A DNA stretch of 43,224 nucleotides, from positions 1 through 43,224 of the IMG/VR virus record IMGVR_UViG_3300034198_012760; one strand, 5' to 3'. Below the pieces are notes generated by a model, which was given only the letters and a program-made list of their open reading frames with translations, had not been told where the DNA came from and ran no database searches. The position numbers and the translations under genes were made by a program. This stretch comes from a virus. Positions 3,461 through 36,519 of the stretch are shown one piece after another; the first letter of the stretch is position 1; every line of letters begins with the position of its first letter.

Positions 3461-4279
3461 ATGAGTAAATTATCTGCTGTATTTATTGGAAATTGTCAAA
3501 ATTCTGGAATTGTTACTTATCTTAAAAAGAACAAAGAATTTGCAGACAATTACGAGGTAAAAATTTACGCAAATTGGGAAATGATTAAAAATAAAGATTC
3601 TTTGCCGATCAAAGAATTATTAACTGCTGATTTATTTGTGTATCAACCATTACCCGATATATATGGCTGTTATTCTACAGATCCAACCGTCCCCGATTCT
3701 TTAATTCACTATTTAAAGTCATCATGTATTCAAATTTCGTATCCATACGTATTTAACTCAGCATTATGGCCTATATATCAAAAAGGACATGAACAAAATT
3801 CTTGGTTTGGAGATAGTGTTATAAATAAATTGTTATTATCAAAAGCAACTCATGATGATATAATTAAACTATATCAATCAAATCAAATTGATTGGGAATA
3901 TGAAAATAGGTTCAATGAATCAATGTCAATTCTAAAAACTAAAGAAATTATAACCGACGTAAAGATTTCTAATTATATCGAATCAGAATTACAAAATCGT
4001 CTTTTGTTTTTAATTCCACAACATCCTACAAGCATTATATTTTTAAACATGGTTAATCAAATTTTAACAAAACTAAAAATGAATCAATTAAATGAGGATG
4101 TTATATTAGACAAAAATGAAACAAAATTACCAGACTCAACATATAACAATCCCAATGGAATGTTTCCAATTCACGCATCAGTAATTAATCATTATGGATT
4201 AAAAAACTGTGATGGTTATGTACTTGATGCAAATCAGTTTTATTTGGATAAACTTATAAAATATATAAATATGTTATAG
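3461..4279 (+). CDS. WcbI-like polysaccharide biosynthesis protein
   Basis: A 272-residue protein. It opens with a strand ending in FIGNCQNSGIVTYL, the GNCQ signature of WcbI-family capsule proteins. A LFVYQPLPDIYGCYS segment follows, then SCIQISYPYVFNSALWPIYQ, matching the conserved core in order. WcbI proteins are linked to acyl modification of bacterial capsules and resemble SGNH-type hydrolases; the exact reaction is not settled for the family. It is preceded by TTACATAAAACTT and no SD. In this cassette a role in acylating or modifying the phage-made glycan is a reasonable inference. Confidence 0.72.
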   Translation: MSKLSAVFIGNCQNSGIVTYLKKNKEFADNYEVKIYANWEMIKNKDSLPIKELLTADLFVYQPLPDIYGCYSTDPTVPDSLIHYLKSSCIQISYPYVFNSALWPIYQKGHEQNSWFGDSVINKLLLSKATHDDIIKLYQSNQIDWEYENRFNESMSILKTKEIITDVKISNYIESELQNRLLFLIPQHPTSIIFLNMVNQILTKLKMNQLNEDVILDKNETKLPDSTYNNPNGMFPIHASVINHYGLKNCDGYVLDANQFYLDKLIKYINML

Positions 4280-13185: not shown

Positions 13186-13847
13186 TTTTTGAACATCGTT
13201 TCGTAAATTGGTGACACAATCTTGTTCAGAGTTTCATCGTTCATAATATCCTGATATGTTTTACCGGTGGAATTTATATGTTCCCATTCAACCAAAACGT
13301 CGGATTCATCCTTAACCTTAGGATCGTTCCAACGTTCATGATCATTCGCAGGATCAGTCCAAATCTTTTTGGTTGTATTGGCAATATCACTACGAATACG
13401 TCTTCCATCTGTAGGAAAACCATATGTGTACTTGGAAACGTGAATTAACTTACCTTGCAAATCGTTGGTAATCCAATACACTTCGTCTTTTGGATAAAAG
13501 TTATACCGAATATCTGTTATAAAAATAACATCCGAATTATCCTTTTCCATATCAGATTGAAGTTTCTCGGTCCAATAACGACCATGTGTTTGTTTACGTT
13601 TTACATCACCATACCAAACAAGCATATCTCGAAATACCTTTTTTTCTTCAGTATTCTCCGTAAAAACATCCACCCCCAACTTATCCTGTATAAACTCCTT
13701 ACAGTCATTCTTGAGATAATACGCTAAAGCATAAGAACTGACTGACAATCCATATGTTTCGGCAATGATTTTCTTTGATATATCACAAAACAAGTTCTTG
13801 CCTGATCTTGCGACTCCAGATATTCCGATATAAACTTTTTTATTCAT
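13182..13847 (-). CDS. Deoxynucleoside monophosphate kinase-like P-loop protein (T4 gp1 type)
   Basis: A 221-residue P-loop protein. GISGVARSGKN at residues 8-18 is a Walker A loop with the variant end GKN and resembles the T4 gp1 dNMP kinase loop (RSGKD). IFITDIRYNFYPKDEVYWI at about 97-115 resembles the acidic-R strand after the LID in gp1-like kinases. Such kinases phosphorylate dNMPs for phage DNA synthesis. It overlaps both the clamp-loader gene and rmlA, so nucleotide and sugar-nucleotide genes are co-translated. Another P-loop kinase family cannot be excluded. Confidence 0.65.
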   Translation of the reverse strand: MNKKVYIGISGVARSGKNLFCDISKKIIAETYGLSVSSYALAYYLKNDCKEFIQDKLGVDVFTENTEEKKVFRDMLVWYGDVKRKQTHGRYWTEKLQSDMEKDNSDVIFITDIRYNFYPKDEVYWITNDLQGKLIHVSKYTYGFPTDGRRIRSDIANTTKKIWTDPANDHERWNDPKVKDESDVLVEWEHINSTGKTYQDIMNDETLNKIVSPIYETMFKK

Positions 13848-14358
13848 TTGTCATTAGTTTTTCCGCTTCTTCGTCGGTCAAACCATACGCTTTACATATA
13901 TTGATCATTTCTGTTAAACCACTATCTGTTTGACTTAAAATTTCAACATATTCTTCTACTTCTGAAGATGAACATTCATACCATCGTGCCAGCAATTGAT
14001 AAAACTCCGAAGAGTATTTTGTCTTTGATGGTTTGATATAGGGATGAAAATATTTAGTACGAGGTACAGTTGCAATCAATACCTGATAAAAGTTCTCAGA
14101 CGGCATACTGTCCTGATACTTTCCAATATAAGAAAGTGAATCAAGAGAGTTACGATCCATCGACAAAAACTTCATCAACATCACGTGAGCAAAACTCTTT
14201 TTGTCAGCATCACTTAACGTTGAAAAGTACTTGGGATTTTGAACATTACGTATGTGGTTAACATGATCAAATAACCCCAAGGCCTTTGGTGTGCTAATAT
14301 TACTGTCTTCTGTTGATGCTTTTTTGGATTTCTTTGGTGACGTTTTTCTTGTTGCCAT
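13840..14358 (-). CDS. DNA polymerase clamp-loader small subunit (T4 gp62-like)
   Basis: A 172-residue protein with a Lys/Ser-rich tail of about 25 residues at the front. KKSFAHVMLMKFLSMDRNSL at about residues 53-72 matches the 'KxYxxFxxNrfLS' block of gp62. FYQVLIATVPRTKYFHPYIK at about 89-108 matches the T4 gp62 VPRGKRYGKW region. The C-terminal helices end in a Glu-rich tip. gp62 forms a 1:4 clamp loader with gp44 ATPase subunits that places gp45 clamps at primer ends. The gp44 and gp45 partners are not in this window. ACGGAATC gives a modest SD. It overlaps the upstream membrane gene by 59 bases. Confidence 0.78.
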   Translation of the reverse strand: MATRKTSPKKSKKASTEDSNISTPKALGLFDHVNHIRNVQNPKYFSTLSDADKKSFAHVMLMKFLSMDRNSLDSLSYIGKYQDSMPSENFYQVLIATVPRTKYFHPYIKPSKTKYSSEFYQLLARWYECSSSEVEEYVEILSQTDSGLTEMINICKAYGLTDEEAEKLMTNE

Positions 14359-15227: not shown

Positions 15228-16154
15228 TTAATTCAACTCCGATTGAAATTTTTCGATAGCGTAATCTTTGGCTTTAAACTCCATTTCAAGATCCAAGTTA
15301 CCATTGTATGTGGCATATTCCACCGGAATATCACGCACATACTGACCATGTGACCGGGGATTCTTTTCAGAAGGATCGTTATCGCTAAAGTGAAACAACG
15401 GAATATACGCAGACCACGTATTTGTAGCCATCGTTAGAGCTTCAGTTGCAGTTTGACGACCCGGATTGCAACGAAAATGAAGGTTGTCATATGTGATTGG
15501 AATACCAGTCTGTTGATAAACGTGTTCATACAGTTGTTCCACATTCCAACTGTTAGGCTTGTCTTCGTTCTCCAAAACCAATCTTCGCTTCACTGACACC
15601 GAAAGATCGTTGTATACGTCAATAAAACGTTTTGCGATGTCTTTTAGATCCGCACCCTTGAAACAATTCATATGAATGTTGATAGGTGCGTCATACGATT
15701 GAGGAAGTCCCATATAATCCATCATCTTTCCATGAGTTTCCAACTCAATAACAGATTTTTGAGCCACATTGGGATTTGCGCTAGCGGGAACCACAAATTG
15801 GTCAGGATGTGTAGAACAACGAATGTTATGTTGTTTGATCACCGAAGTACACAAATCAAACTCATGTTTGATCTTGTCAAAGTTATAAGTGGTTTCAATA
15901 GAAAGATTTGCTTCTGGAAGTGTTTCTAAAGGCATCATACCGCTGCTGATACGGTAATTCCACTTACGAGAAGCACAATATTCTAGTGTCTTACGTGTTA
16001 CAATTACGTTGTTTAGGGTACGATCTGCAACAGTACGTTCTGCGTTGACTCGTTCCAACTGAAGGAAACGAGTTTTGGTCATGGTGGACGCTTGAATTCC
16101 CTGCTCTTGAAGACGAAGGGAGATACAACACAGACTATAACGGTGATTACGCAT
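15228..16154 (-). CDS. uvdE: UV damage endonuclease, UvdE type
   Basis: A 308-residue TIM-barrel endonuclease of the UvdE family, which nicks DNA 5' to UV photoproducts to start excision repair. The start SLCCISLRLQEQGIQAST matches the family's 'GYCCIS-L' opening. YRISSGMMPLETL at about residues 67-79 matches the R-x-SS-x-M-P block. STHPDQFVV, INIHMNCFKG, LENEDKPNSW, TYDNLHFRCNPG and LFHFSDNDP supply, in order, the His/Glu/Asp metal ligands expected of the barrel. Length is normal. No SD precedes the ATG; a strong hairpin ends 5 bases before it. This suggests a phage exposed to sunlight, since uvdE is uncommon in phages. Confidence 0.88.
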   Translation of the reverse strand: MRNHRYSLCCISLRLQEQGIQASTMTKTRFLQLERVNAERTVADRTLNNVIVTRKTLEYCASRKWNYRISSGMMPLETLPEANLSIETTYNFDKIKHEFDLCTSVIKQHNIRCSTHPDQFVVPASANPNVAQKSVIELETHGKMMDYMGLPQSYDAPINIHMNCFKGADLKDIAKRFIDVYNDLSVSVKRRLVLENEDKPNSWNVEQLYEHVYQQTGIPITYDNLHFRCNPGRQTATEALTMATNTWSAYIPLFHFSDNDPSEKNPRSHGQYVRDIPVEYATYNGNLDLEMEFKAKDYAIEKFQSELN

Positions 16155-19247: not shown

Positions 19248-21284
19248 TTAGATTTTACTATTACTGTTCAAAAACATGTCGTTCATTGTCTTAGCGACAC
19301 TAATAACGTTGGTTACATCAATAAACCGGGAGTCTTTACCGTACATAGTTTTAAAACATGTAACGGCCGGATCAATATAATAATTTTTATGTGTATATTC
19401 ACTGATAAAATAAGACACAACCTTATATCCCTTTTCACGGATCATGCCAACCTGTTTACGAGTGTGTTTTGATCCATTATTACTTGAATACACAATATAT
19501 ACGTTGTTCTTTTGATAACAATACCCCGGTTCACCATCAGAGAAATTCAGGAAATAATAATCCTCGTTTTCTCCACAGTCTTTCAACTGATCCATAATTG
19601 CCTCGAAACACAATCCTTCAGGAGTGCTTCCAGTACAAGACAAATAAGGAAACAGATTCACCACTTTGGCAAAAGAGTCCTTACTAGAATCATACACCAT
19701 AGCAATATACGGATTACCACTTGTATGACTGGTTGTACGAAGACTCACACTGACACGAATATTAGAAATCATTGAAGCGGCTTTACAAATTGCCGTAACA
19801 CAAGTGATAGTATTAGTCCACTTTTTACCATCCATACTAGCACTAGCATCTACAGAAATATGAATAAACGCCTTTTTATACAGATCCGTCTCAATTCTAT
19901 AGAAAACATTCTCGTTGTCAAATCCAAGATCAGACAAAACACGTCGATCAATTTTACCCATTGACTTACGCATATACTTCGTTGTGTTAATTTCACTACG
20001 AATACTCAGACGTTTTCCAAGCAAAATGCCAAGTTGGACACCTCGTTCCACTGCCATTTTAGTGGCTGCCTTAGGGTTTTTATGTTCATCATAATCAACA
20101 CAAGGACAAATATCGGAAAATACCAGTTCACGATTGAAGTTCTTCACAACAATACAATCAACACCGGGTGTGGGACTAGTACCATCAATAATATTAGCTC
20201 CAACATTAACAATAGTCACTCCCGCACTTTCCAAACTGGCAAGAATCTTATTCTCAGTAGCAGAAATCTTTGACTTCTTGATATTTCCCAAAACAAAAAT
20301 CTTCTGCTTCTTTAGAGCACGATCAATAGAATCACGTTTGCTCTTGGAAACTCCACTTTGTTCATTCGCCTTTTTAGTAACATCTTCAGAATTAGAAGTT
20401 GGAGAAACTACAGACGTAGTTAAACCTCCAATGATAGATTCAGCAGAATCAGAAGATTTACCATTTGATTCATCCGAACCAATAACAAGTTTGGTATCAC
20501 TTTCACCATTCTTAGAATTTCCATTCTCCATTTTCTGCTGATCAGAATCAATGTTTGTGTAAATCAACTCACAAACTTTGATAGCCAAATCAAGACGATC
20601 TTGAGGCGTTTTCAAACGATTGATTGTCGAAATACTAATCGTCTCAGCAATCTCCCTAAAATCAGGCAACGCATCCAAATCAGTATTTGGATTTGTCAAA
20701 TTAATCAACCGAGATTCATAGGATTGAAGAGTAGCGGAACGATACATTTGTGACTTCAACATCACATCAATGTTTTTGTTGTTGAAAAACTTGTCATACA
20801 ACGCCAAGTAATATCCACGGTACCCCGGCGCATTTGTGTAAATAAACTGATCGATATAACGATCTTCAATGACATTCAGAATCGTTTTAAGAAACGAAGC
20901 TACATCAGTTTTAGAAAACCCCTTTGTCTCGGCAATATTGTAAAGACTACGTGGAATGTTCTGCCACAGATCAATCACCAAACGAAAGTCACTCAACAAC
21001 ACATGTGATCCTTCATGTAGAGCCAATCCAACAAGACTATCAAAATCCTCAGGATCTCCTATGTCAGATGAAAGATACACAACCTTACCATCAGTCATGT
21101 TGTCTCCGCTGTCATTGAACATCACCGGGATGTTCTTTCCGGTGAGGATACTAACAAAATTAGCAACAGCTCTACGGCTCATATTGAGTCGAATAAGACG
21201 AGTGGTCGAATCAACAGCAACCGTCGAGTCGAAATCATCAAATTCGTCCAACCAGAAATCAGAATGTATAGAGGATTGTTTCAT
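19248..21284 (-). CDS. VWA-domain protein with N-terminal HExxH metallopeptidase-like domain (MoxR partner)
   Basis: A 678-residue protein. The N-terminal domain (1 to about 250) has LALHEGSHVLLSDF, an HExxH motif at residues 90-94, then NVIEDRYIDQFIY at about 137-149, which could supply a third acidic ligand as in zincins. A Ser/Lys/Glu-rich linker (about 250-320) follows. The C-terminal VWA domain carries the MIDAS motif VDASASMDGKKW (DxSxS at about 479-483) and a later FSDGEPG. VWA proteins with this N-terminus usually act with a MoxR ATPase, here the adjacent gene. It has its own promoter (21294-21322), with a predicted start site only a few bases from the ATG. Confidence 0.82.
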   Translation of the reverse strand: MKQSSIHSDFWLDEFDDFDSTVAVDSTTRLIRLNMSRRAVANFVSILTGKNIPVMFNDSGDNMTDGKVVYLSSDIGDPEDFDSLVGLALHEGSHVLLSDFRLVIDLWQNIPRSLYNIAETKGFSKTDVASFLKTILNVIEDRYIDQFIYTNAPGYRGYYLALYDKFFNNKNIDVMLKSQMYRSATLQSYESRLINLTNPNTDLDALPDFREIAETISISTINRLKTPQDRLDLAIKVCELIYTNIDSDQQKMENGNSKNGESDTKLVIGSDESNGKSSDSAESIIGGLTTSVVSPTSNSEDVTKKANEQSGVSKSKRDSIDRALKKQKIFVLGNIKKSKISATENKILASLESAGVTIVNVGANIIDGTSPTPGVDCIVVKNFNRELVFSDICPCVDYDEHKNPKAATKMAVERGVQLGILLGKRLSIRSEINTTKYMRKSMGKIDRRVLSDLGFDNENVFYRIETDLYKKAFIHISVDASASMDGKKWTNTITCVTAICKAASMISNIRVSVSLRTTSHTSGNPYIAMVYDSSKDSFAKVVNLFPYLSCTGSTPEGLCFEAIMDQLKDCGENEDYYFLNFSDGEPGYCYQKNNVYIVYSSNNGSKHTRKQVGMIREKGYKVVSYFISEYTHKNYYIDPAVTCFKTMYGKDSRFIDVTNVISVAKTMNDMFLNSNSKI

Positions 21285-21330: not shown

Positions 21331-22281
21331 TTAGAACGGAGGTTGAGAAACACCAACTGGATCATTCATCAACGGAGTGGTGTTGGATTCTGCCGGAATA
21401 TACTTCTGAACAACCTGTTTGATATACACACGTTCACTGTCAACACCACCGTCAATAGAAAACTCAGGATAAATGACACTTTCAGCAATCTCACGAAGAT
21501 TGAATCCATCATTGGCCAATTCTGTCATCTCACACACAGCACGGGTAGACACAAAGTTGGTAATCTTACCATCTTCCTGACGATATTGATCACGGGTATG
21601 AGCCGCAATATCACAAATTGCGGAGATGGTGTTGAAAACCTCAGTATCTTTGGTGTTAATCTTGAATCGATTAACCATAAGGTTAAATTCGGACTGTTTA
21701 TCAAGAAAGTCCATTTCAATCTTAACAGTAAAACGGTCCATCAAAGCGCGATCCATAACACGGGTGGCAGTATACTGATTACCAATATTGGCAGTTCCAA
21801 TAAAACACACACCCTTCGCTACGGTAATAACTTCACTGTCCTTCTTTTCATCCAAACGAAGATATCGTTGAAGGTTATCAAGAACAGTCATCATGATGTT
21901 TGCAGCATCGTGGTGAGCGCGGCTAATTTCATCCAAAAGAATGACAGCATTAGGAGTTTGAATCGCCCTAACAAAAGTAGACTCACTAAAAATCGTTCCC
22001 GTGTCCTTTTCAAAGTGAGTATTACCAATAAGAGCACTACGAGAATCTTGAGTAGATCCCATGTTGAAGTAAAAGAACGGACGATTGAAGACCTTGGCAA
22101 CTGTCTGAGCGGCAAGAGTCTTACCACAACCAGTGGGTCCAACCATCAACACGTTCTTACCGTAAAGAACTGATCGAACGAGGTACTTCCACTTAAGATC
22201 TGAAATAATCACATCAGATGGCTTAAGATTCACAGAAGTCTTGAGGATATCGTTGACTGAGGAGAGTTTGATGTCTGTCAT
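21331..22281 (-). CDS. MoxR-family AAA+ ATPase
   Basis: A protein of about 316 residues from the chosen ATG at 22281; an ATG at 22299 adds 6 residues but overlaps the -10 of its predicted promoter. Walker A is VGPTGCGKTLAA (residues 54-61 of the long form) and Walker B is VILLDEISRA (about 119-128). A MoxR-type sensor segment, FIGTANIGNQYTATRVMDRA followed by LMDRF with the arginine finger, comes next. The helix-2 insert region (GSTQDSRSALIG) fits the MoxR/AAA_5 group. These ATPases act as remodelling chaperones with VWA partners, here the next gene downstream. Confidence 0.88.
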   Translation of the reverse strand: MTDIKLSSVNDILKTSVNLKPSDVIISDLKWKYLVRSVLYGKNVLMVGPTGCGKTLAAQTVAKVFNRPFFYFNMGSTQDSRSALIGNTHFEKDTGTIFSESTFVRAIQTPNAVILLDEISRAHHDAANIMMTVLDNLQRYLRLDEKKDSEVITVAKGVCFIGTANIGNQYTATRVMDRALMDRFTVKIEMDFLDKQSEFNLMVNRFKINTKDTEVFNTISAICDIAAHTRDQYRQEDGKITNFVSTRAVCEMTELANDGFNLREIAESVIYPEFSIDGGVDSERVYIKQVVQKYIPAESNTTPLMNDPVGVSQPPF

Positions 22282-22297
22282 ATTTTTAATTTCCATC

Positions 22298-22325
22298 ATC
22301 CTACACCGGTTATAGAAAAAGTCAA
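22298..22325 (-). promoter_or_regulatory. Promoter of the MoxR gene, TTGACT-16-TAGGAT
   Basis: Minus-strand TTGACT at 22320-22325, 16-base spacer containing CTATAACCGGTG, TAGGAT at 22298-22303. It shares CCGGTGTAGGAT with the VWA promoter about 1 kb downstream, suggesting joint control. It lies directly after the terminator at 22327-22356. Confidence 0.55.
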
Positions 22326-23488: not shown

Positions 23489-23704
23489 TTAACGTTTATT
23501 GCCACTAGAACCACTAGAACCACTTGATCCTGTAGGCTTTGGTGTTCCGGTTGGCTTTGGCTTAGAACCACTTGATCCGCCGGAACCACTGGATCCACTG
23601 GATCCACTTGATCCTGTAGGCTTTGGTGTTCCAGTTGGCGTTGGCTTAGAACCGTTAGTTCCGGCTGTACCACTTGGTGTTGGCGTTGGTGTTGGATTTG
23701 ACAT
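23489..23704 (-). CDS. Low-complexity Pro/Thr/Gly/Ser repeat protein
   Basis: A 71-residue protein composed almost only of P, T, G, S and K: SNPTPTPTPSGTAGTNGSKP, then two copies of a KPTPTGTPKPTGSS-type unit separated by SGSSG linkers. It has one of the best SD sites in the window (AAAGGAATAAATT-ATG) and is followed by a strong terminator, so it is probably expressed. It must be disordered; it may be a linker-like or surface-decorating peptide. The Ser/Thr-Pro-rich sequence resembles O-glycosylated linkers, but no such role is shown. Confidence 0.6.
   Translation of the reverse strand: MSNPTPTPTPSGTAGTNGSKPTPTGTPKPTGSSGSSGSSGSGGSSGSKPKPTGTPKPTGSSGSSGSSGNKR
23520..23653 (-). repeat. Two 50-bp direct repeats in the low-complexity gene
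   Basis: Copies at 23520-23569 and 23604-23653 are identical except for two bases and are offset by 84 bases (28 codons), so the frame is kept. Smaller GGATCC/GGAACC-type units fill the gap. The layout is prone to copy-number change by slippage or recombination. Confidence 0.85.
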
Positions 23705-27209: not shown

Positions 27210-28592
27210 TCAGTCTTTGTCATCTTCTATGTGAGCATTCCACTTATTGCTAAGTGCCTTCTTCACAAGATTCTCACTGTCACCCATTTCATTGATAACT
27301 GACATACCATCCTTGGAGTTTTCAGCATAAATCTGAATATCACCACATCCGGCATTCATTCGACTCGGAAATGTCATACCATCGGGACCAAAACGGTTCT
27401 TGATGATATGAAACCGTGCAGTATTCGATACTTTATCGGTAACTTTACGGCTCAATGACATAACAAAGTCTGCCGTCATGATCTTTCGATACGAATCGGA
27501 GATGTTATTTGCCTGAATAATGTCTTCATCCATAGCAGCACGGTTACTTTGTGAAGCACTCCATATAGGAACCTGAAGTTCGCCAGCAACACTACGAAGT
27601 TCTTCATAAATACCACCAGCTTCACTATAACTATTGCTGTTACGTTCACTCTGATAAGGACGTAGAATGTCAGCATAATCGACAATAATCAAATCGATCT
27701 TACTTCCCAACATCGCAATACGTTCCGTATGCATCTTCAAGTGATGGGCACTAACAGTTTTGATAGGAAAGTACTTGATGAACAGTTTACCGGGAACTTG
27801 TTCAATCTTCTTACGAACGATATCAATGTTATTACGAATGTTTTGAAAGTCAATTCCGGTAAAACATGCATCATAACGAAGACCCACATAGTTTTCATTC
27901 AACTCAAGAGTAAAATGAACCACGTTCTTTCCTTGCTTCATGGCTTCAGCACCAATCTTTGCCAAAACCCAACTCTTGCCACTACCAGCACAAGCAGTGA
28001 TAATTCCAAGTTCACCGCCTGCCAATCCACCATCCATGATGGTATCTACTTCAGTCCAGTTGGTCTTAACAGTGTTACGTGCCATAACACTCATACGTTT
28101 ATCAACATCAGTCATATAATCATGACCAATGTTACGTTCCATACCAGCCTTCATTGCACTGTCAACCAAAGACTTGACTTTTTCATAATTTCCAGTCTTG
28201 AGATGTTCAACACTATCAATAATAGCGTTCTTTAGCTTCTGACTCTTACAGAACTCCAAGTATTGTTCCTTGACGAACTTAAGATCACTATCAGTGATCT
28301 TTTGATATACGTTTCTTAGTTGTGAAACGATTGATTCCTTGAGTACCGAGTTTTCAATACTATCAACCTTAATCTTAAATACATTAAGGGTAGGCAAATC
28401 CTTATATTGCATAAAGTATGCAACGGTTTGCTTTACAATCCATTGATGAGCATCAGATTCAAACGATGTGGGGTCAATGATGTCCGAAAGTCTTTCCAAA
28501 AAAGACTTATCGCTGAGAATTCCTGAGATACACTTGATCTGGAATTCTGATCCAAACTTCTTCAAATTGTCGATTACATGGTTTTCGCTCAT
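27210..28592 (-). CDS. Replicative DNA helicase, DnaB/T4 gp41 type
   Basis: A 460-residue helicase. Residues 1 to about 150 form the DnaB-like N-terminal helical domain. The RecA-fold motor has Walker A ITACAGSGKSWVLAKIG (about 198-214) and HFTLELNENYVGLRYDA (motif H1a). Walker B is IDLIIVDYADILRP, WSASQSNRAAMDED is the DnaB motif H3, and FHIIKNRFGPDG is the arginine-finger region (H4). It forms a hexamer that unwinds DNA ahead of the fork. Walker A reads ACAGSGKS rather than the common PxxGKT. No separate primase was recognised in the window. No SD precedes the ATG. Confidence 0.9.
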   Translation of the reverse strand: MSENHVIDNLKKFGSEFQIKCISGILSDKSFLERLSDIIDPTSFESDAHQWIVKQTVAYFMQYKDLPTLNVFKIKVDSIENSVLKESIVSQLRNVYQKITDSDLKFVKEQYLEFCKSQKLKNAIIDSVEHLKTGNYEKVKSLVDSAMKAGMERNIGHDYMTDVDKRMSVMARNTVKTNWTEVDTIMDGGLAGGELGIITACAGSGKSWVLAKIGAEAMKQGKNVVHFTLELNENYVGLRYDACFTGIDFQNIRNNIDIVRKKIEQVPGKLFIKYFPIKTVSAHHLKMHTERIAMLGSKIDLIIVDYADILRPYQSERNSNSYSEAGGIYEELRSVAGELQVPIWSASQSNRAAMDEDIIQANNISDSYRKIMTADFVMSLSRKVTDKVSNTARFHIIKNRFGPDGMTFPSRMNAGCGDIQIYAENSKDGMSVINEMGDSENLVKKALSNKWNAHIEDDKD

Positions 28593-28668: not shown

Positions 28669-29733
28669 TTATCTCACCAACGTGGTCAACTTACCAAAAC
28701 ACTCGTTGAGCCAAATTTGGTAGTTGGGGATGTTATTCCACATTTTGTCTTCTGTGACCAACTTGGAAAATCCAACTCTGTCCATCTTCTTTATTGGCAT
28801 ATCCAAGATTTCATTGATACGAAGTTGTGAGAAACTTTGAATCTCCGTATCCTTCAATTGCATCAACGTATAGTTACGTTCGACAATATCCTTGTTTTCA
28901 AGAATATTACGATAGAGCTTATATTTGCTCTGATTGTTTTCACAATAAGTGTAAATCTCTTGCAGATCTACATGTCTACTTTCGGCAAAAAACGGAAAAC
29001 ACTTGATAATAGTTTTTAGTCCAGCGCCATTAATTCCATCGATGTTATCTGACACATCACCCTCCAAAACTCTATACCAAATATAATTCTGACAGCTAAC
29101 ACCGTATTCATTTAGAATTTCAGCACAACCATACAGTTTCTTTTTGGTAGGACTCCATACTTTAATTTTATCACTTGCCAATTGTAGAAAATCTTTATCA
29201 GCACTCATGATACTTACATTACTATCTTTATAATATTGTTGAGCAACATATGCAATTGTGTCATCTGCTTCAATATGATCGATTGCCATGGTTGAAATAG
29301 GCAAACAATCCAAATAGTGAACAGAACGCATTAACTGCGATTTCATATTCTTTTCTTCCAAATCACTAGTTGAAAGTTCTGAGTATGCTCTGTTTAATCG
29401 TATTTTTGTGTGTCGTTTATGTTTGTATTGTGGGTAAATCTTACGGCGTTTCATACTTCCGCCATTACCATCAAAAATAATAACACACCTAGTAGGGTTA
29501 ATTAATTTGATTGCATAACCCACACTCTTTAAAAATCCGGCAATGCCACCCGTGTGAAGACCATCTTCATTCATGGATGGCATTACCGAATATGCGCGAA
29601 TAAATGTATTTAGCCCGTCCACCAAGAGAATATCCGAATTTTGACTTCGGTTAGACAAAGTATTCTTTTCTTCTTGTGAAATATTCTCAAAAATAGAGAA
29701 CAACTTCTTTTTTTCCTCTTGGTTAAAACTCAT
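28669..29733 (-). CDS. 5'-3' exonuclease / RNase H (T4 Rnh, FEN family)
   Basis: A 354-residue FEN-type nuclease. ILLVDGLNTFIRAY has the first metal aspartate (D39). CVIIFDGNGGSMKRRKIYPQ carries the next aspartate and the basic arch residues. DHIEADDTIAYVAQ gives the E/D/D cluster and SADKDFLQLASD the later pair. GDVSDNIDGINGAGLKT is the helix-3-turn-helix DNA-binding motif. The family removes RNA primers and flaps on the lagging strand. An N-terminal extension of about 30 residues precedes the first motif. GGAG 11 bases before the ATG lies in the end of uvsX, from which it is separated by 6 bases. Confidence 0.9.
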   Translation of the reverse strand: MSFNQEEKKKLFSIFENISQEEKNTLSNRSQNSDILLVDGLNTFIRAYSVMPSMNEDGLHTGGIAGFLKSVGYAIKLINPTRCVIIFDGNGGSMKRRKIYPQYKHKRHTKIRLNRAYSELSTSDLEEKNMKSQLMRSVHYLDCLPISTMAIDHIEADDTIAYVAQQYYKDSNVSIMSADKDFLQLASDKIKVWSPTKKKLYGCAEILNEYGVSCQNYIWYRVLEGDVSDNIDGINGAGLKTIIKCFPFFAESRHVDLQEIYTYCENNQSKYKLYRNILENKDIVERNYTLMQLKDTEIQSFSQLRINEILDMPIKKMDRVGFSKLVTEDKMWNNIPNYQIWLNECFGKLTTLVR

Positions 29734-29739
29734 ATGCTA

Positions 29740-30927
29740 TTATTCTCCGCCAACTTCTTCTGCGTCCTCGGAAGAATCAACTTCCACATCTTCTCTAATC
29801 TCACTGTCAGGTGACTTGTACTTCATGATAGTTACTTCAGAAATCTTCTGATACAACTCTTCACGAAGTTCGGCATTAACCTTTACATCCTTAGCAAATG
29901 TCTTGGTATCAATCTTAACAACTTCACCACTGTTCTTGATGTAATTGTATGGCGACTTAGCACCAGTGATAATTGAATGTTTCTTCAACACTTCAATCCA
30001 ATTGCCACAATTATCAATACCACTATCAAAGTAAATATTGAAATCAGCGTATCTCATAGGCGGACCCATACGATTTTTAACAACCACCGCTCGAGTCTTA
30101 ACACCGATGTGAATAGGTTCACCATTTTGAGTAATCTTCAAAGCACCCATACCCTTCAGTCGAAGACGTACACTAGCATGATACTGAATTGCCTTACCAC
30201 CACTGGTAATATACTTATCGCCAAACATCGCTGCCTGAAGGTTGACACGTAGTTGATTCGTGAAAACCAATGCAATACGTTGCTTACCAATCATGTCGTT
30301 AATCTTACGCATCGCCTTGGAAATAATGATGGCCTTTCCAGTTGCATAACCATCCTTACCGTGATCACTTTCCAACTCGGCCTTAGTAGATGCACCAGCA
30401 ACACTGTCAACTATAATTGTGACAAGTCGATCTTTATTAGATTTACGAGCTTGAGAAATCAATAGTTCGATCTTTTCAAAGATGTCTTCCACTGTATTTG
30501 CGGTAACATACAACATCTTTGGAATATCAACACCAATTGCTGTAAGAAAATCTTCAGAAACGGACTGTTCTGTATCAATAAAGATAGCAAGTCCACCCTT
30601 CTTTTGAGTTTCAGCAAGCAAATGTGCAGCCAACAAACTCTTACCGGACGCTTCAAGTCCAGTAATTTCGATAATTCGTCCCACCGGCATACCGGCATGT
30701 GGTCGATTTGAAATTGCGAGATCCAAGATATCACAACCTGTACTAATCCAATCCGTAATTGTAGATGGATCTTCTTTTTGATCCAAGAAAAACGCACACT
30801 TACCTGCATCTTTATTGGCCTTGTTTAACGCATCAGCGATAGATTCAATTAGTTCATCTCTCTGTGATGTACTATCATGTGTAACATGAGTTGATACTTT
30901 TTTCTTTTTTGGTGTTTCGTCTGACAT
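29740..30927 (-). CDS. uvsX: UvsX/RecA-like recombinase
   Basis: A 395-residue RecA-fold strand-exchange protein. Walker A is EITGLEASGKSLLAAHLLAE (G90-S97). AIFIDTEQSVSEDFL carries the catalytic Glu. TIIVDSVAGASTKAELE is Walker B, and IALVFTNQLRVNL is the L2-like region. GGKAIQYHASVRLRLKG is typical of RecA/UvsX. It has a Lys-rich N-terminus and an acidic C-terminal tail (DSSEDAEEVGGE), also typical. It drives recombination-dependent replication and repair together with the SSB gene just upstream. A terminator separates the two, and no promoter is visible between, so it depends on read-through. No SD. Confidence 0.93.
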   Translation of the reverse strand: MSDETPKKKKVSTHVTHDSTSQRDELIESIADALNKANKDAGKCAFFLDQKEDPSTITDWISTGCDILDLAISNRPHAGMPVGRIIEITGLEASGKSLLAAHLLAETQKKGGLAIFIDTEQSVSEDFLTAIGVDIPKMLYVTANTVEDIFEKIELLISQARKSNKDRLVTIIVDSVAGASTKAELESDHGKDGYATGKAIIISKAMRKINDMIGKQRIALVFTNQLRVNLQAAMFGDKYITSGGKAIQYHASVRLRLKGMGALKITQNGEPIHIGVKTRAVVVKNRMGPPMRYADFNIYFDSGIDNCGNWIEVLKKHSIITGAKSPYNYIKNSGEVVKIDTKTFAKDVKVNAELREELYQKISEVTIMKYKSPDSEIREDVEVDSSEDAEEVGGE

Positions 30928-30991: not shown

Positions 30992-31834
30992 TTAACTATT
31001 GAACAAATTGTCAAACGCCTTGGTGAGGTCGTCTGTATTTGTCTTTGCCACACCAGCAGTAGGAGACTTACTAGTTGCCTTTGCCGGAGCAGCAGCTTGA
31101 ATAGCTGCGGCAGCGGCGACTGGCTGAGTATCGTCTTCGTCAATAACCGCGTTGTTAACAGTCTCGGCTGGAGCGTTCTCCGGATTTAGCCAAGAGGTCA
31201 TAACCTCCTTGAGTTCCTCATACTTGGGTTCGGGAAACAAATCAAGAATGTCAGTCTGATTCTTGATAGAATCAATCATCTTGTTATCCTTAGGATCAAC
31301 TGCGGGTGTAGCGTTAGGCTTCACACGAATTGAAGTTTCAGGATAGTTCTTACCACTCTCCTCAGCGGTACGGAACTCAACAACGATATCACGTCCGGAC
31401 GCGAGATCGGTAATATCACCGTAATCGGGATCGGCCATAACAGATAGAATTTCCTGATAGACCTGCTTTCCGAATCCCCAGAACTTCACACCTTCATGCT
31501 CTTCACCACGAACGATGACAGGAGCGAATGTGCGCATCTTGGGTTCCATCTTACGACCAGTCTGCCAATCTTCCTTAGAACCAGTCTTCTTGAGACGGTT
31601 GCTAAATTCGACGATAGGATCCGGACGATTAAAACTATCTGGAGACAGATAAGTCTTGTTATTGATGCCGTAATGAAACTTGAGTTCGATGAACGGAGCA
31701 TCAGGTTGGAACTTATAGGGAACGATACGAATTGTTTGCTTACCCGGCTTTGGCTTCCAAATGAGTTGGGTCTTGGAATTCGTGTTTGAAAGAGAGTTCA
31801 AACGGCTCTTAATCTTCGACAAGTCAATTGCCAT
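30992..31834 (-). CDS. Single-stranded DNA-binding protein, T4 gp32-like
   Basis: A 280-residue protein. The N-terminus IDLSKIKSRLNSLSNTNSKT contains the Lys/Arg-rich region that in gp32 mediates cooperative binding. The core starts LIWKPKPGKQTIRIVPYKF and includes PFIELKFHYGINNKTYLSPD and FWGFGKQVYQEILSVMADPD, as in gp32-like OB-fold proteins. No Cys/His cluster is present, so the T4 zinc site is missing. An Ala/Pro linker (about 235-260) leads to the partner-binding tail TDDLTKAFDNLFNS. It has a strong promoter, a structured leader and its own terminator, suggesting high, separately controlled output. Confidence 0.85.
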   Translation of the reverse strand: MAIDLSKIKSRLNSLSNTNSKTQLIWKPKPGKQTIRIVPYKFQPDAPFIELKFHYGINNKTYLSPDSFNRPDPIVEFSNRLKKTGSKEDWQTGRKMEPKMRTFAPVIVRGEEHEGVKFWGFGKQVYQEILSVMADPDYGDITDLASGRDIVVEFRTAEESGKNYPETSIRVKPNATPAVDPKDNKMIDSIKNQTDILDLFPEPKYEELKEVMTSWLNPENAPAETVNNAVIDEDDTQPVAAAAAIQAAAPAKATSKSPTAGVAKTNTDDLTKAFDNLFNS

Positions 31835-31925: not shown

Positions 31926-31954
31926 ACTATATCAGCGTATTCTCAAACTTTCAA
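31926..31954 (-). promoter_or_regulatory. Sigma70-like promoter of the SSB gene, TTGAAA-17-TATAGT
   Basis: Minus-strand TTGAAA at 31949-31954 and TATAGT at 31926-31931 with optimal 17-base spacing, in the 116-base gap upstream of the SSB gene. The predicted start near 31919 gives a leader of about 85 bases holding the stem structure at 31868-31917. The -35 overlaps the end of the preceding gene. Confidence 0.65.
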
Positions 31955-32343
31955 CTTATTATATCGAAAATTTTGAGGGGAATTATTTTAACGGAGATCT
32001 CATTTGTTATAATCAATGAGTTATTATAATACTCCCAATTTAACTGATAAGTTTTATCAAAAACGCCATTATTTTCCTCGGTGATGAGTTTGTTCATGGC
32101 ATTTAACGTATACAAAGTATTGGTTTGTTTTTTACGATGTATAGAAATAGTATTAGGCAGCTTTTTACGAGCGAACTCACTATTTAGTATATTATATGTA
32201 AGATACAATTCGTTGTTGTTTTTCTCATTATTAAACACAAAAATTTTGTTGTTTGTTAATGTATAAAACGATTTAACTTGTTCCACTAATAGTTTATAGT
32301 CCGTTGGAACAGAAAATGTACAAAGTAATTGTGTGTCTTTCAT
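31951..32343 (-). CDS. Unknown protein next to SSB
   Basis: A 130-residue soluble protein, not assigned. It starts MKDTQLLCTFSVPTDYKLLV and continues NKIFVFNNEKNNNELYLTYN, then LPNTISIHRKKQTNTLYTLN. The alternating beta strands and 'NTLYTLNAMNKLI' helix give a small alpha/beta protein of a type I associate with T4-like marine phages, without known function. It is directly upstream of the SSB promoter and overlaps the preceding gene by 4 bases. In T4 the genes beside 32 encode a helicase loader and a late-transcription factor; no similarity to either is visible. Confidence 0.6.
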   Translation of the reverse strand: MKDTQLLCTFSVPTDYKLLVEQVKSFYTLTNNKIFVFNNEKNNNELYLTYNILNSEFARKKLPNTISIHRKKQTNTLYTLNAMNKLITEENNGVFDKTYQLNWEYYNNSLIITNEISVKIIPLKIFDIIS

Positions 32344-33036: not shown

Positions 33037-34713
33037 TTATTTCTTTAAGTCTACGGATGCACTGTCTACTTTTGCTAATGGCATGGTGATCAACGAGAAG
33101 TTTAGAAACAAATAATCATCGTTTCCGATTGTTAACGAAGCAGCCTGATCCGTGGTTCCACCTTCTCCACAAAGAGTTGGTCGATATGCAAAAATTGGAT
33201 CCTTGGCATTTTTTGGAAGTGGCAAGTTAGGATTAAACCAAACATGTCCACCTTCAGTGGTTTTAATCAAAAGATGTCGTTCATTTGAAGCGTTTGGTGA
33301 ATTTGATTTAATCCAATTAATAGATCCCATTTTACTCGGATCACGTGCTGTCATATCTTCTGGATTAATTACGTTCATTTCAACGTTTGCAGTTGTATGC
33401 ATTAATATACAACAATTGTTTTCACTAAATGGTGCTTTGCCATCAATATCAAATTCGGGACCATATATTGTCTTGCCGGCAATAATTCTGGTTGCTTTTG
33501 TTCCATCCAAGAAATCAAGATGTCCTGAAAATTTGCTACCACCCATGTAATACAAATACTTTTTGCCAGTAGATGGTTTTGTTACAAATTTATAAAACGC
33601 ATTACGAAAATCTGAAGTTATGGCAATATAAAATTTAGTTCCTTGTCCAAGTGTTTCAAGTACAGACTTTCCATTAATAGTGATGGCTTTATTTTGTTCA
33701 TCAAATGTAGTTGTCTTCGGATTAATCGTTAATGGTGGAACCCGATAATGCCTCTTAATTCCTTCTATGAAAGATACCTTAATACTATCCCATATCATTT
33801 TAACTTTTCCATCGGTGAATGCCTTATCTAATCCTAACATTCCAGAATACTGTGGGAAATCTACTCTACGTACTGACTGTACTTTTACCTTTGGATTAAA
33901 TTCCGCACCTTTAAAGGAAATCCAAAATACATCAGTTTCTTGATTGCACAATGCAATGTCTGCTTTAGCATCCTTACCTTTATTTAATCTTTTAGCGTAA
34001 TCAACTTCAACTCCAGTGGCAACTCGTTCATTTTGGTCCCAAAAATGCAACCGCATTGGAGTTTTTTCTGGATTATTTTCTTTAAACCACACGTTCATAT
34101 GATCAACTGCAATTTCTTCTTTTTCCTTGCCAGGCGATTTAGATACTACACCCAAAGTAAACAAATCGGGGTGTTCTTTTATCAACTTAAAAAACAACAT
34201 AAGTTGTCCGAAAGCTATACCAGTATCAGTTTTAATACCATGTGTAGTGTTGATATTTGAAACTCGGGTACCTTTATTTGTAGCAATTCTTAATGAACTG
34301 TTACTATGTAATACTTTTAATCCCCCTTCTTCTTTTCCAATTTTTACGACATCACTCATTGTTAACGACGCATCTTGTTTACGATCTTTAGGAAACAATG
34401 TTGGTGGTTGATTTCTTGCGTTTGAAAGATCAAGTTTTCTTAAATCGTCATCGTCAAAAAATACACGTGCTTGTTCTGGTTTACCACGCCCAATTATTTT
34501 ATTGATTAATGTGATATCTTCCTCGGATAATCCGTTTGATGGGGTTTTACTTTCAATTTCGTTGACCAATTTTGGTATTGAAAAATAAGAATCGTAACCA
34601 CAATTTTCGATTGCGGTAACCAACAAATCATGATCTAATTTGTCAATACCGCCAGTTTTTGAAAGTACCGAATACTCTAAAAGTATATCTTTGATGATTT
34701 TATCTTTATTCAT
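33037..34713 (-). CDS. Unknown protein with a possible PD-(D/E)xK-like motif
   Basis: A 558-residue soluble protein, not recognised. It opens with a helical domain (LLEYSVLSKTGGIDKLDHDL). At residues 251-270 it has ADIALCNQETDVFWISFKGA, that is D252 and S266-x-K268 on two adjacent strands. This is the arrangement of PD-(D/E)xK nucleases with Ser in place of the middle acid. A second segment, FYIAITSDFRNAFYKFV, and a long beta-rich C-terminus (WFNPNLPLPKN) follow. It lies downstream of the polymerase on the same strand. A nuclease role is only a suggestion; a structural protein is equally possible. Confidence 0.55.
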   Translation of the reverse strand: MNKDKIIKDILLEYSVLSKTGGIDKLDHDLLVTAIENCGYDSYFSIPKLVNEIESKTPSNGLSEEDITLINKIIGRGKPEQARVFFDDDDLRKLDLSNARNQPPTLFPKDRKQDASLTMSDVVKIGKEEGGLKVLHSNSSLRIATNKGTRVSNINTTHGIKTDTGIAFGQLMLFFKLIKEHPDLFTLGVVSKSPGKEKEEIAVDHMNVWFKENNPEKTPMRLHFWDQNERVATGVEVDYAKRLNKGKDAKADIALCNQETDVFWISFKGAEFNPKVKVQSVRRVDFPQYSGMLGLDKAFTDGKVKMIWDSIKVSFIEGIKRHYRVPPLTINPKTTTFDEQNKAITINGKSVLETLGQGTKFYIAITSDFRNAFYKFVTKPSTGKKYLYYMGGSKFSGHLDFLDGTKATRIIAGKTIYGPEFDIDGKAPFSENNCCILMHTTANVEMNVINPEDMTARDPSKMGSINWIKSNSPNASNERHLLIKTTEGGHVWFNPNLPLPKNAKDPIFAYRPTLCGEGGTTDQAASLTIGNDDYLFLNFSLITMPLAKVDSASVDLKK

Positions 34714-34720
34714 GACGACA

Positions 34721-34771
34721 CAATATTTAATAAATATTGCGTCTTATATGAAAACCTTTCTTTTTAGAAAG
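34721..34771 (-). other. Intergenic palindrome and weak terminator-like hairpin after the polymerase gene
   Basis: 34721-34739 is a perfect A/T palindrome (CAATATTTA-A-TAAATATTG), 8 bases before the 558-residue gene. 34756-34771 is a 5-bp CTTTC/GAAAG stem that holds the polymerase stop codon in its loop, followed on the minus strand by TTTT. Both are weak; the first may be an operator, the second a leaky terminator. Confidence 0.3.
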
Positions 34772-36107
34772 ATACTGGAATCATGTCATGATAGTTCTTT
34801 CCTGTATAACACTTGGTTGGAAATCCTTGGTTCTCCATCAATCGTATAATTTCAGACAAAATACCCTGTTTACCCTCACTTTTATGTACATCAAACAACA
34901 TAGAATCATAAGTGTACAAAATAGGTTTGGTCTGTTTATCACTCAAATAACGATTCACATCCATCAAACTCTGCATCGAATATTCAGTTTCAGACGCTTG
35001 AAGAATATAGTTGAACAACTTGTTCGGATTGGAATCCTTCAAGTGATTTGACGTTATAGGACGTTTAAAAATGGGAGTCTCAATATATCCAAAACTCTTA
35101 AAGAAATCCCACCGGTGCTCAATATATTCACGGATCTTCGCAAAATAAGGAATTTTAAGGTATTCATCAGAAATTGAACCATACAATTGTTGGAACGTTA
35201 ACGTTTTCGCCTTCTTCAACTGATCTTCAGAAAGATCTTCGGATTTGAAGTAATATTGACCCAAATATGCATATATGTTAACATTTTTAGGAAAATCATA
35301 TCGAATCAATTTTCCAATAATATGCGGATGATACGCGCTATAATCCAACATCACCAATATTCCATCATCACCAAACCTTGATACAAAACTCTTACGACAT
35401 TCGTTTTCTTTGTTCAACGCGGAATAGTTGATACCGCCAAAACGATTGCTGGGACGACCCGTTGATGTAAAAATGTTATACTCGGTGTATATACGGTTGT
35501 TTACTACCAGATGTTTCTTATCAGGGAAGTGTTTCTCAAACTCAACCATATCAACGTACAATCCATGTGATTCAATAGATTGTAGAGTTTCTATAATCGA
35601 TGTATTAACGTTGTGATATGAATCATCATACGTCTTTTTAATATGAACCTCTACATCTTCACATACGTCCAAAAATCGTGATATGTGATTGTTAACAGGA
35701 ATTATCTTGTTGAGTTCATTATGATGATTGTACTTGTTTCTAAAGAATAGGTGTGCCGAAGTATCATATTCGTCCTGATCAATAATCTCTCCTGATTCAA
35801 TAAATGATATCAATGACAAATCATGAAGATTCTGAATCTTCAACAAATGAAGTACTTTACGTTTAGAAAAACAAAAGATACGTCCACGAATCGTATTTAA
35901 CAGATTGATAATATCATCCTTAGATACAAACTCAACCGAATCATATGTGTCAATATGAATCGAATACCATTTGTTGTTTGACACCACCTTGATCAACACC
36001 AAACACGGTTCGTCTGACGCGGAATGTCTAAAATCAGATAAAGGCACCACATCCAAAATGATGTCCTTCTTTCCAATCTCAGATATAATTTTTTTAACAA
36101 GATTCAC
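34764..36107 (-). CDS. Short, divergent family A DNA polymerase, GTG start
   Basis: A 447-residue polymerase. The palm/fingers are unmistakable. FTSTGRPSNRFGGINYSALN (213-232) matches the TGRLS-x-NLQN block. MLDYSAYHPHIIGKL is motif A with D255. LKKAKTLTFQQLYGS is motif B with K298, K301 and Y309. NYILQASETEYSMQSLM is the Q-helix, and ILYTYDSMLFDV is motif C with D401. Motif A lacks the usual Glu (DYSxxE becomes DYSAYH) and motif C reads YDS instead of HDE. Residues 1 to about 160 look like a 3'-5' exonuclease fold without clear acidic motifs. A near-leaderless promoter precedes it. Confidence 0.87.
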   Translation of the reverse strand: MNLVKKIISEIGKKDIILDVVPLSDFRHSASDEPCLVLIKVVSNNKWYSIHIDTYDSVEFVSKDDIINLLNTIRGRIFCFSKRKVLHLLKIQNLHDLSLISFIESGEIIDQDEYDTSAHLFFRNKYNHHNELNKIIPVNNHISRFLDVCEDVEVHIKKTYDDSYHNVNTSIIETLQSIESHGLYVDMVEFEKHFPDKKHLVVNNRIYTEYNIFTSTGRPSNRFGGINYSALNKENECRKSFVSRFGDDGILVMLDYSAYHPHIIGKLIRYDFPKNVNIYAYLGQYYFKSEDLSEDQLKKAKTLTFQQLYGSISDEYLKIPYFAKIREYIEHRWDFFKSFGYIETPIFKRPITSNHLKDSNPNKLFNYILQASETEYSMQSLMDVNRYLSDKQTKPILYTYDSMLFDVHKSEGKQGILSEIIRLMENQGFPTKCYTGKNYHDMIPVSF

Positions 36108-36116
36108 TCACCTATA

Positions 36117-36145
36117 ACCATATCGTAACGATTTCAAAATGTCAA
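36117..36145 (-). promoter_or_regulatory. Promoter of the polymerase gene, TTGACA-17-TATGGT
   Basis: Minus-strand TTGACA at 36140-36145 (overlapping the stop of the upstream gene), 17-base spacer, TATGGT at 36117-36122. Only 9 bases separate the -10 from the GTG start at 36107, so the mRNA would have a leader of only a few bases. AGGTGA is adjacent to the GTG but too close to act as a normal SD. Confidence 0.55.
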
Positions 36146-36519
36146 CCTTTAAACGCATTTAAATAATTCTCGCTAATTTTCAAGGTTATTCCAGTCATGT
36201 CTTTTTCTGCCAACTTAACTTGTTTACGATTATACTCGTAAGCACCTTCTTGAATCACCTTGCCATCTTTAATAACGTCACGTTGTATTCCAGATACTTG
36301 CCAATTGATGCTTGATTTCTTATAGATATTTTCTGGAAGATTTCTAAAATTGTCACCCTCAACTTCAATAACGTCGTTGTCGTTGATCTTTTTAACAAAA
36401 TAACGACGTGTATAAGGAATACTATAGTCAATGTCAGAAGACGAAAACAAATACGCACGTGGAAATATCGATGGTATTATATCCCCAGCTAAATTAATAT
36501 ATTTACTCAATTCAATCAT
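36142..36519 (-). CDS. Unknown protein in the tail block
   Basis: A 125-residue protein, not recognised. It begins with a helix (MIELSKYINLAGDIIPSIFP) and continues as a beta-rich domain with YTRRYFVKKINDNDVIEVEG and SSINWQVSGIQRDV. No catalytic residues, signal peptide or membrane segment. It overlaps the upstream 818-residue gene by 4 bases and lies at the end of the tail transcript, just before the polymerase promoter. A small tail or baseplate accessory is a reasonable guess from position only. Confidence 0.5.
   Translation of the reverse strand: MIELSKYINLAGDIIPSIFPRAYLFSSSDIDYSIPYTRRYFVKKINDNDVIEVEGDNFRNLPENIYKKSSINWQVSGIQRDVIKDGKVIQEGAYEYNRKQVKLAEKDMTGITLKISENYLNAFKG

Follow-up and report, generated by a model that had tools for sequence, protein, structure and literature searches.

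The viral fragment analysed here (43,224 bp; hereafter the window) carries on its minus strand the gene for a short family A DNA polymerase of 447 residues. In a Pfam search the protein matches DNA_pol_A (PF00476) with an E-value of 1.9e-10 and 40.7 bits, the curated cut-off of this family being 34.3 bits, so the family and length given in the original prediction hold. That prediction had the gene reach 36145. The coding start is instead the GTG at 36107, which an in-frame TGA immediately precedes. The protein is almost certainly a member of divPolA1, a group named by Yutin et al. (2024, Virol J) from 14 phages including Flavobacterium phage immuto (PMC11348598). Coordinates of the gene, its motifs and its neighbours are collected in Table 1.

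Table 1. The divPolA1 gene, its domains and motifs, and other genes of the window discussed in the text
Feature	Position	Strand	Basis or remark
divPolA1, short family A DNA polymerase, 447 aa, GTG start	34764-36107	-	ORF, Pfam DNA_pol_A, tree, AlphaFold
N-terminal ~165 aa, degenerate 3'-5' exonuclease-fold domain, catalytic carboxylates absent	35613-36107	-	Foldseek against Klenow
Motif 1, TSTGRPSN	35445-35468	-	R218 = Klenow R668; R in 94/94
Motif A, DYSAYH	35328-35345	-	D255 = catalytic D705; H260 at the place of steric-gate E710
Motif B, KTLTFQQLYG	35178-35207	-	K301 = K758, F305 = F762, Y309 = Y766
Motif C, YDS (within YTYDS)	34902-34910	-	D401 = catalytic D882; Y for H881; S for E883
125-aa gene directly upstream of divPolA1, end of baseplate block	36142-36519	-	Upstream neighbour in 53/63 testable loci
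558-aa protein, function not assigned	33037-34713	-	Only near the window's own clade; dN/dS 0.23-0.36, faster evolving
130-aa protein between divPolA1 and SSB	31951-32343	-	55/56 testable loci
gp32-like single-strand DNA binding protein (SSB)	30992-31834	-	phrog_1192, E 1.5e-17
UvsX recombinase	29740-30927	-	phrog_97, E 3.5e-66
5'-3' exonuclease (FEN / RNase H type)	28669-29733	-	PF02739, E 1.5e-30
DnaB-type replicative helicase (gp41-like)	27210-28592	-	phrog_19, E 1.7e-73; PF03796
UV-damage endonuclease UvdE	15228-16154	-	PF03851, E 5e-40
Clamp loader small subunit (gp62-like)	13840-14358	-	phrog_225, E 4.5e-12

The gene sits between a baseplate block on one side and, on the other, a block that runs from the 130-aa protein through SSB, UvsX and FEN to DnaB. 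This arrangement recurs among relatives: counted, like the neighbours in Table 1, among unique loci with enough flank, SSB lies downstream of divPolA1 in 37/37, UvsX in 9/9 and FEN in 8/9. The 130-aa protein has no match in Pfam or PHROG, and the 125-aa neighbour matches no family.

The AlphaFold model of the protein (pLDDT 94.8, pTM 0.91) finds its best solved Foldseek matches in Klenow fragments, which it follows along the whole fold with a TM-score of 0.75 by query length; a crystal structure of the E658A variant of Bacillus Pol I with rCTP is also among the matches. At the sequence level a search of the PDB with the single sequence is weak (best E 0.08), and a profile search was used for the alignment to Klenow. 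Both proteins combine an exonuclease-fold N-domain with a polymerase domain, and motifs 1, A, B and C align. The degenerate exonuclease-like front that had been read from the DNA is thus borne out, both by the fold and by the residues lost. The Pfam exonuclease family PF01612 does not match the window protein; across divPolA1 the Glu of exo I is absent, with Val or Ile in its place, and no conserved Asp is found at the place of exo II. Judged from these two places, the 3'-5' exonuclease domain is inactivated. The second large difference from Klenow concerns the thumb. In the profile-based alignment the interval between the IExNG and TGRPSN anchors measures ~18 residues in divPolA1 versus ~105 in Klenow, and by this measure most of the thumb, about 90 residues, is deleted. 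Compared with complete E. coli DNA polymerase I, the protein also has no fused 5'-3' exonuclease.

How much of the active site is left? The window protein holds the catalytic Asp pair and the motif B Lys and Tyr of canonical family A enzymes, while the rest of the canonical signature (DYSQIELR with its Glu in motif A, HDE in motif C) is replaced by DYSAYH and YDS. Both altered motifs had been pointed out in the original prediction, and they turn out to be family-wide. Among 94 non-identical divPolA1 sequences, numbered by alignment to Klenow, every one has the D705 equivalent in motif A and a His at the place of E710. Motif B, which in the window protein reads KAKTLTFQQLYG, keeps the equivalent of K758 in all 93 readable sequences, Y766 in 93/94 and F762 in 84/94. 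In motif C the readable sequences agree on Tyr (93/93) and Asp (93/93), followed by Ser in 78 and Ala in 15, and no sequence departs from the R668 and Q849 equivalents. Both motif C and the stretch around Gln370 served as retrieval patterns, so that their conservation is partly due to selection of the sequences; His260 lies outside every such pattern. Other places have drifted: at R754 mostly Ile, Tyr, Val, Leu or Met is found, and at H734 Tyr or His. Since the motif changes hold across the whole family, they do not reflect the degeneration of one gene.

In Pol I, R668 and Q849 contact the primer terminus and the minor groove, and R754 is a ligand of the triphosphate. Because R754 has become hydrophobic in most members and H734 is Tyr in two thirds of them, nucleotide binding must differ from that of Pol I and activity may be weak. 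Both R668 and Q849 sense the primer end, and their retention speaks for a DNA polymerase that extends primers. One might also think of a pseudo-polymerase, a subunit that merely binds DNA or provides a scaffold in a replication or recombination complex; the missing equivalents of E710, E883 and R754 and the truncated thumb would fit, and the activity of divPolA1 is so far a prediction. We consider such a role improbable, as in all the phages sampled both metal-binding Asp residues are maintained under strong purifying selection together with K758, Y766, R668 and Q849, which a scaffold would not need. Going by these residues, divPolA1 is likely an active polymerase.

With a His at the steric gate, the choice of sugar could be altered, and this raises the question whether the enzyme uses or makes RNA, by inserting ribonucleotides or by extending RNA in a primase-like or RNA polymerase-like manner. 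The 'DS' of motif C resembles T7 RNA polymerase, whose motif C is 'HDS'; HDS is, however, also found in a canonical herellevirus PolA. The residue missing at the gate, E710, is the one that screens the sugar in Pol I (PMC13228545), the fold matches include the rCTP complex mentioned above, and an RNA polymerase role was once considered for divPolA2, another divergent group (PMC11348598). Against these points stand the invariant contacts to primer terminus and minor groove, the exonuclease-like N-domain, and a DnaG-type primase in 5/10 divPolA1 records searched (immuto, Mel-JY01, LR756508, G015 and G016). A role in RNA synthesis therefore appears doubtful. DnaG-type primase matches include L042:7020-8003 and L035:4446-5366. 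In the contigs of the window's own clade, which may be fragments and of which one spans 174 kb, a DnaG-like primase was not detected, and this clade may use another primase. The idea that divPolA1 stands in for a primase is thus disfavoured in the five records with DnaG and stays conceivable in this clade.

Whether such an enzyme copies the genome depends on what else the virus encodes. Within the 43-kb fragment it is indeed the only polymerase, as had been noted; for the virus this does not hold. A 109,021-bp IMG/VR contig matches all 43,224 bases of the window at 99.95-100% nucleotide identity, and on account of this end-to-end match we regard it as the same virus. Window base 1 corresponds to contig base 50082, and about 9 kb past the left end of the window, at contig positions 38193-40736, lies a complete family B polymerase (PolB) of 847 residues, so that the search of the remaining genome for a gp43-type enzyme, which had been suggested as a check, gave a positive answer. 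The protein has an exonuclease domain (PF03104) and a polymerase domain (PF00136) with the motifs DIE, DLTSMYPNI, KILLNSIYG and YVDTDS, and is more tightly constrained (dN/dS 0.03) than divPolA1. It adjoins a gp44-like clamp loader gene (phrog_168, E 6e-76); beside it, the clamp position is taken by a 269-aa protein that gave no match in a search for clamps. The gp62-like small subunit encoded in the window is the expected partner of a family B replicase. From PolB and the two clamp loader genes it follows that the virus has a T4-type family B replisome. Like T4, it thus has a gp43-type replicase, which belongs to another polymerase family than divPolA1 and has an exonuclease domain.

The same picture emerges beyond this virus. 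All 8 records longer than 100 kb encode a regular polymerase besides divPolA1. It is PolB in seven of them (G001, G002, G012, G015, G016, Microcystis phage Mel-JY01 and LR756508, a phage of 484 kb); in immuto it is a PolA of 777 residues that matches PF01612. PolB is also found on the shorter contigs G003, G005, G011, G013, G014 and G019, while on G017 and G018 (83 and 76 kb, possibly incomplete) no regular polymerase was found. Some of these PolB genes have an unusual structure. On G005 and G013 (loci L066/L067, L183/L186) the matches lie in separate frames or are interrupted by stops, possibly reflecting split genes or inserted elements, and in LR756508 (locus L082, 260623-266900) they extend over two long ORFs of 1022 and 625 residues, as if the gene were interrupted by an intein or insertion.

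An accessory rather than replicative role for divPolA1 is accordingly very probable. The opposite assignment, with divPolA1 as the replicase and the family B enzyme as secondary, can draw on its position at the head of the conserved SSB-UvsX-FEN-DnaB block, on the varying family of the regular polymerase among relatives (PolB, or PolA in immuto) and on the remark by Yutin et al. that, given this context, it is less obvious what the regular enzymes do (PMC11348598). It would, however, entrust the genome to an enzyme that has lost its proofreading residues, most of its thumb and R754, next to a PolB with a full exonuclease domain and an adjoining clamp loader gene, and we judge it highly improbable. 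Of the two roles offered in the original prediction, the replicative enzyme of a distinct lineage is accordingly not supported, given PolB in the same virus and in a dozen related records and the full-length, exonuclease-bearing PolA of immuto; the specialised second polymerase is favoured by the presence of a separate regular enzyme.

This second role has already been proposed for divPolA1 as an extra, specialised polymerase accompanying a regular one of family A, B or C, and thumb truncation, inactivation of the exonuclease and a conserved set of downstream replication genes are published traits of the group, for which DNA synthesis was inferred to be retained (PMC11348598). In a full-text literature search the name divPolA1 occurred only in this paper and its preprint, and no biochemistry on any member was found in the literature searched. 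The window thus adds one more member and not a new kind. It resembles the immuto protein in belonging to one clade, in the lost exonuclease, truncated thumb and kept palm, and in the same replication genes downstream. The two phages differ in the family of their regular enzyme, and the window locus, unlike that of immuto, has a 558-aa and a 231-aa gene inserted between divPolA1 and the 130-aa gene. What goes beyond the published record is the invariant His at the place of E710 and the loss of R754, the measured selection and co-inheritance described below, the near-constant 130-aa gene, at least 585 IMG/VR loci, and a divPolA1 beside the PolB of Mel-JY01, where it is annotated as a hypothetical protein.

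Two further systems invite comparison. divPolA2 of barbaviruses (Vibrio phage 1.063.O, AUR84708) is likewise an extra family A-like protein that has no standard thumb and occurs in phages with PolB, but its N-domain is unrelated and its gene context variable (PMC11348598); AUR84708 itself has no Pfam DNA_pol_A match. Rhodothermus phage RM378 had been put forward as a T4-like phage with a split family A enzyme. A search of RM378 for PF00476 gave 0 matches, and its gene of ~522 residues annotated as 'similar to DNA-directed DNA polymerase' matches PF00136 (E 1.2e-34); RM378 is T4-like and its polymerase gene is short, but the enzyme is of family B.

The relatives of the window protein place these observations in an evolutionary frame. 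By tblastn, immuto gp001 is found with an E-value of 4e-44 and 28% identity over 93% of the length, and other phage relatives occur in Mel-JY01 and LR756508. A search with the single sequence recovered 30 IMG/VR loci, while a profile search recovered the larger set given above. divPolA1 also occurs on ten MAG contigs, among them several flavobacterial ones, probably as virus sequence binned with the hosts. In a tree, 59 divPolA1 rows including the window protein and immuto gp001 are separated from 7 canonical PolA by a split with 100/100 support and a branch of length 3.16. In this tree the window protein groups with immuto gp001 and apart from canonical PolA. The idea that divPolA1 arose from the long PolA found in such phages is not supported, as the two PolA of immuto fall on opposite sides of this branch; branches in the tree are long and the exact place of the second one, gp199, is unsure.

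The gene is also clearly maintained. With a dN/dS of 0.08-0.11, divPolA1 is under strong purifying selection, similar to that on the genes for SSB, UvsX and the helicase; the neighbouring replication genes range from 0.04 to 0.11. A decaying or chance ORF was considered and is ruled out by these values and the family-wide conservation, the frame being kept in relatives at 26-100% identity. Pairwise distances of divPolA1 correlate with those of FEN (r 0.88), the 130-aa protein (0.82), SSB (0.78), DnaB (0.73) and UvsX (0.71), each correlation lying above all 500 permutations. divPolA1 and this set of replication genes have been largely inherited together, and the adjacency to FEN and SSB suggests, short of proof, a shared pathway.

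How could a second, stripped-down polymerase serve such a pathway? In the reading that we prefer, the regular polymerase, here of family B, would copy the genome, and divPolA1 would act as an extra small family A enzyme that, lacking processivity and proofreading, extends 3' ends by short stretches of DNA. It may fill gaps that the 5'-3' exonuclease encoded nearby has produced, or work on recombination and repair intermediates coated with SSB and UvsX. A partner protein, for which the 130-aa protein is a candidate, might substitute for the missing thumb and keep the enzyme on the DNA. Together with the separate FEN, divPolA1 would split the job that bacterial Pol I performs in one chain. We give this specific assignment to gap filling or recombination and repair about an even chance; within it, gap filling after primer removal and recombination or repair synthesis cannot be told apart from the present data. 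Lesion bypass is a neighbouring idea, since an accessory polymerase that has lost proofreading would suit it and a UvdE gene lies in the same window; the divPolA1 family has no known lesion-bypass signature, and a translesion enzyme seems unlikely to us. A bolder version of the preferred reading would join the exchange of E710 for His and the loss of the thumb into a changed sugar or primer specificity, within a two-protein Pol I formed with FEN in a family B replisome. It is a long shot; if true, the changed specificity could mean extension of RNA primers or mixed ribo- and deoxyribonucleotide synthesis.

Phages usually need one replicase; here a large aquatic T4-like lineage keeps a second polymerase, a stripped-down one of family A, whose place beside recombination and helicase genes is fixed whatever the family of the main polymerase. 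Its job is a question that can be tested in the cultured phage immuto, for which the invariant His at the sugar gate offers a concrete biochemical lead.

The window holds some further features apart from the replication genes. An AAA protein (21331-22299, minus strand) matches both a phage family labelled 'porphyrin biosynthesis' and MoxR-like ATPases, and is followed by a 678-aa protein with no assigned function (19248-21284, minus strand); the two genes are possibly a CobS/CobT-like pair. Just downstream of the RNR genes, two direct repeats of ~68 bp with 91% identity occupy positions 23502-23653. Near glycosyltransferase genes, a WcbI-type polysaccharide biosynthesis protein (PF18588) is encoded on the plus strand at 3461-4279.
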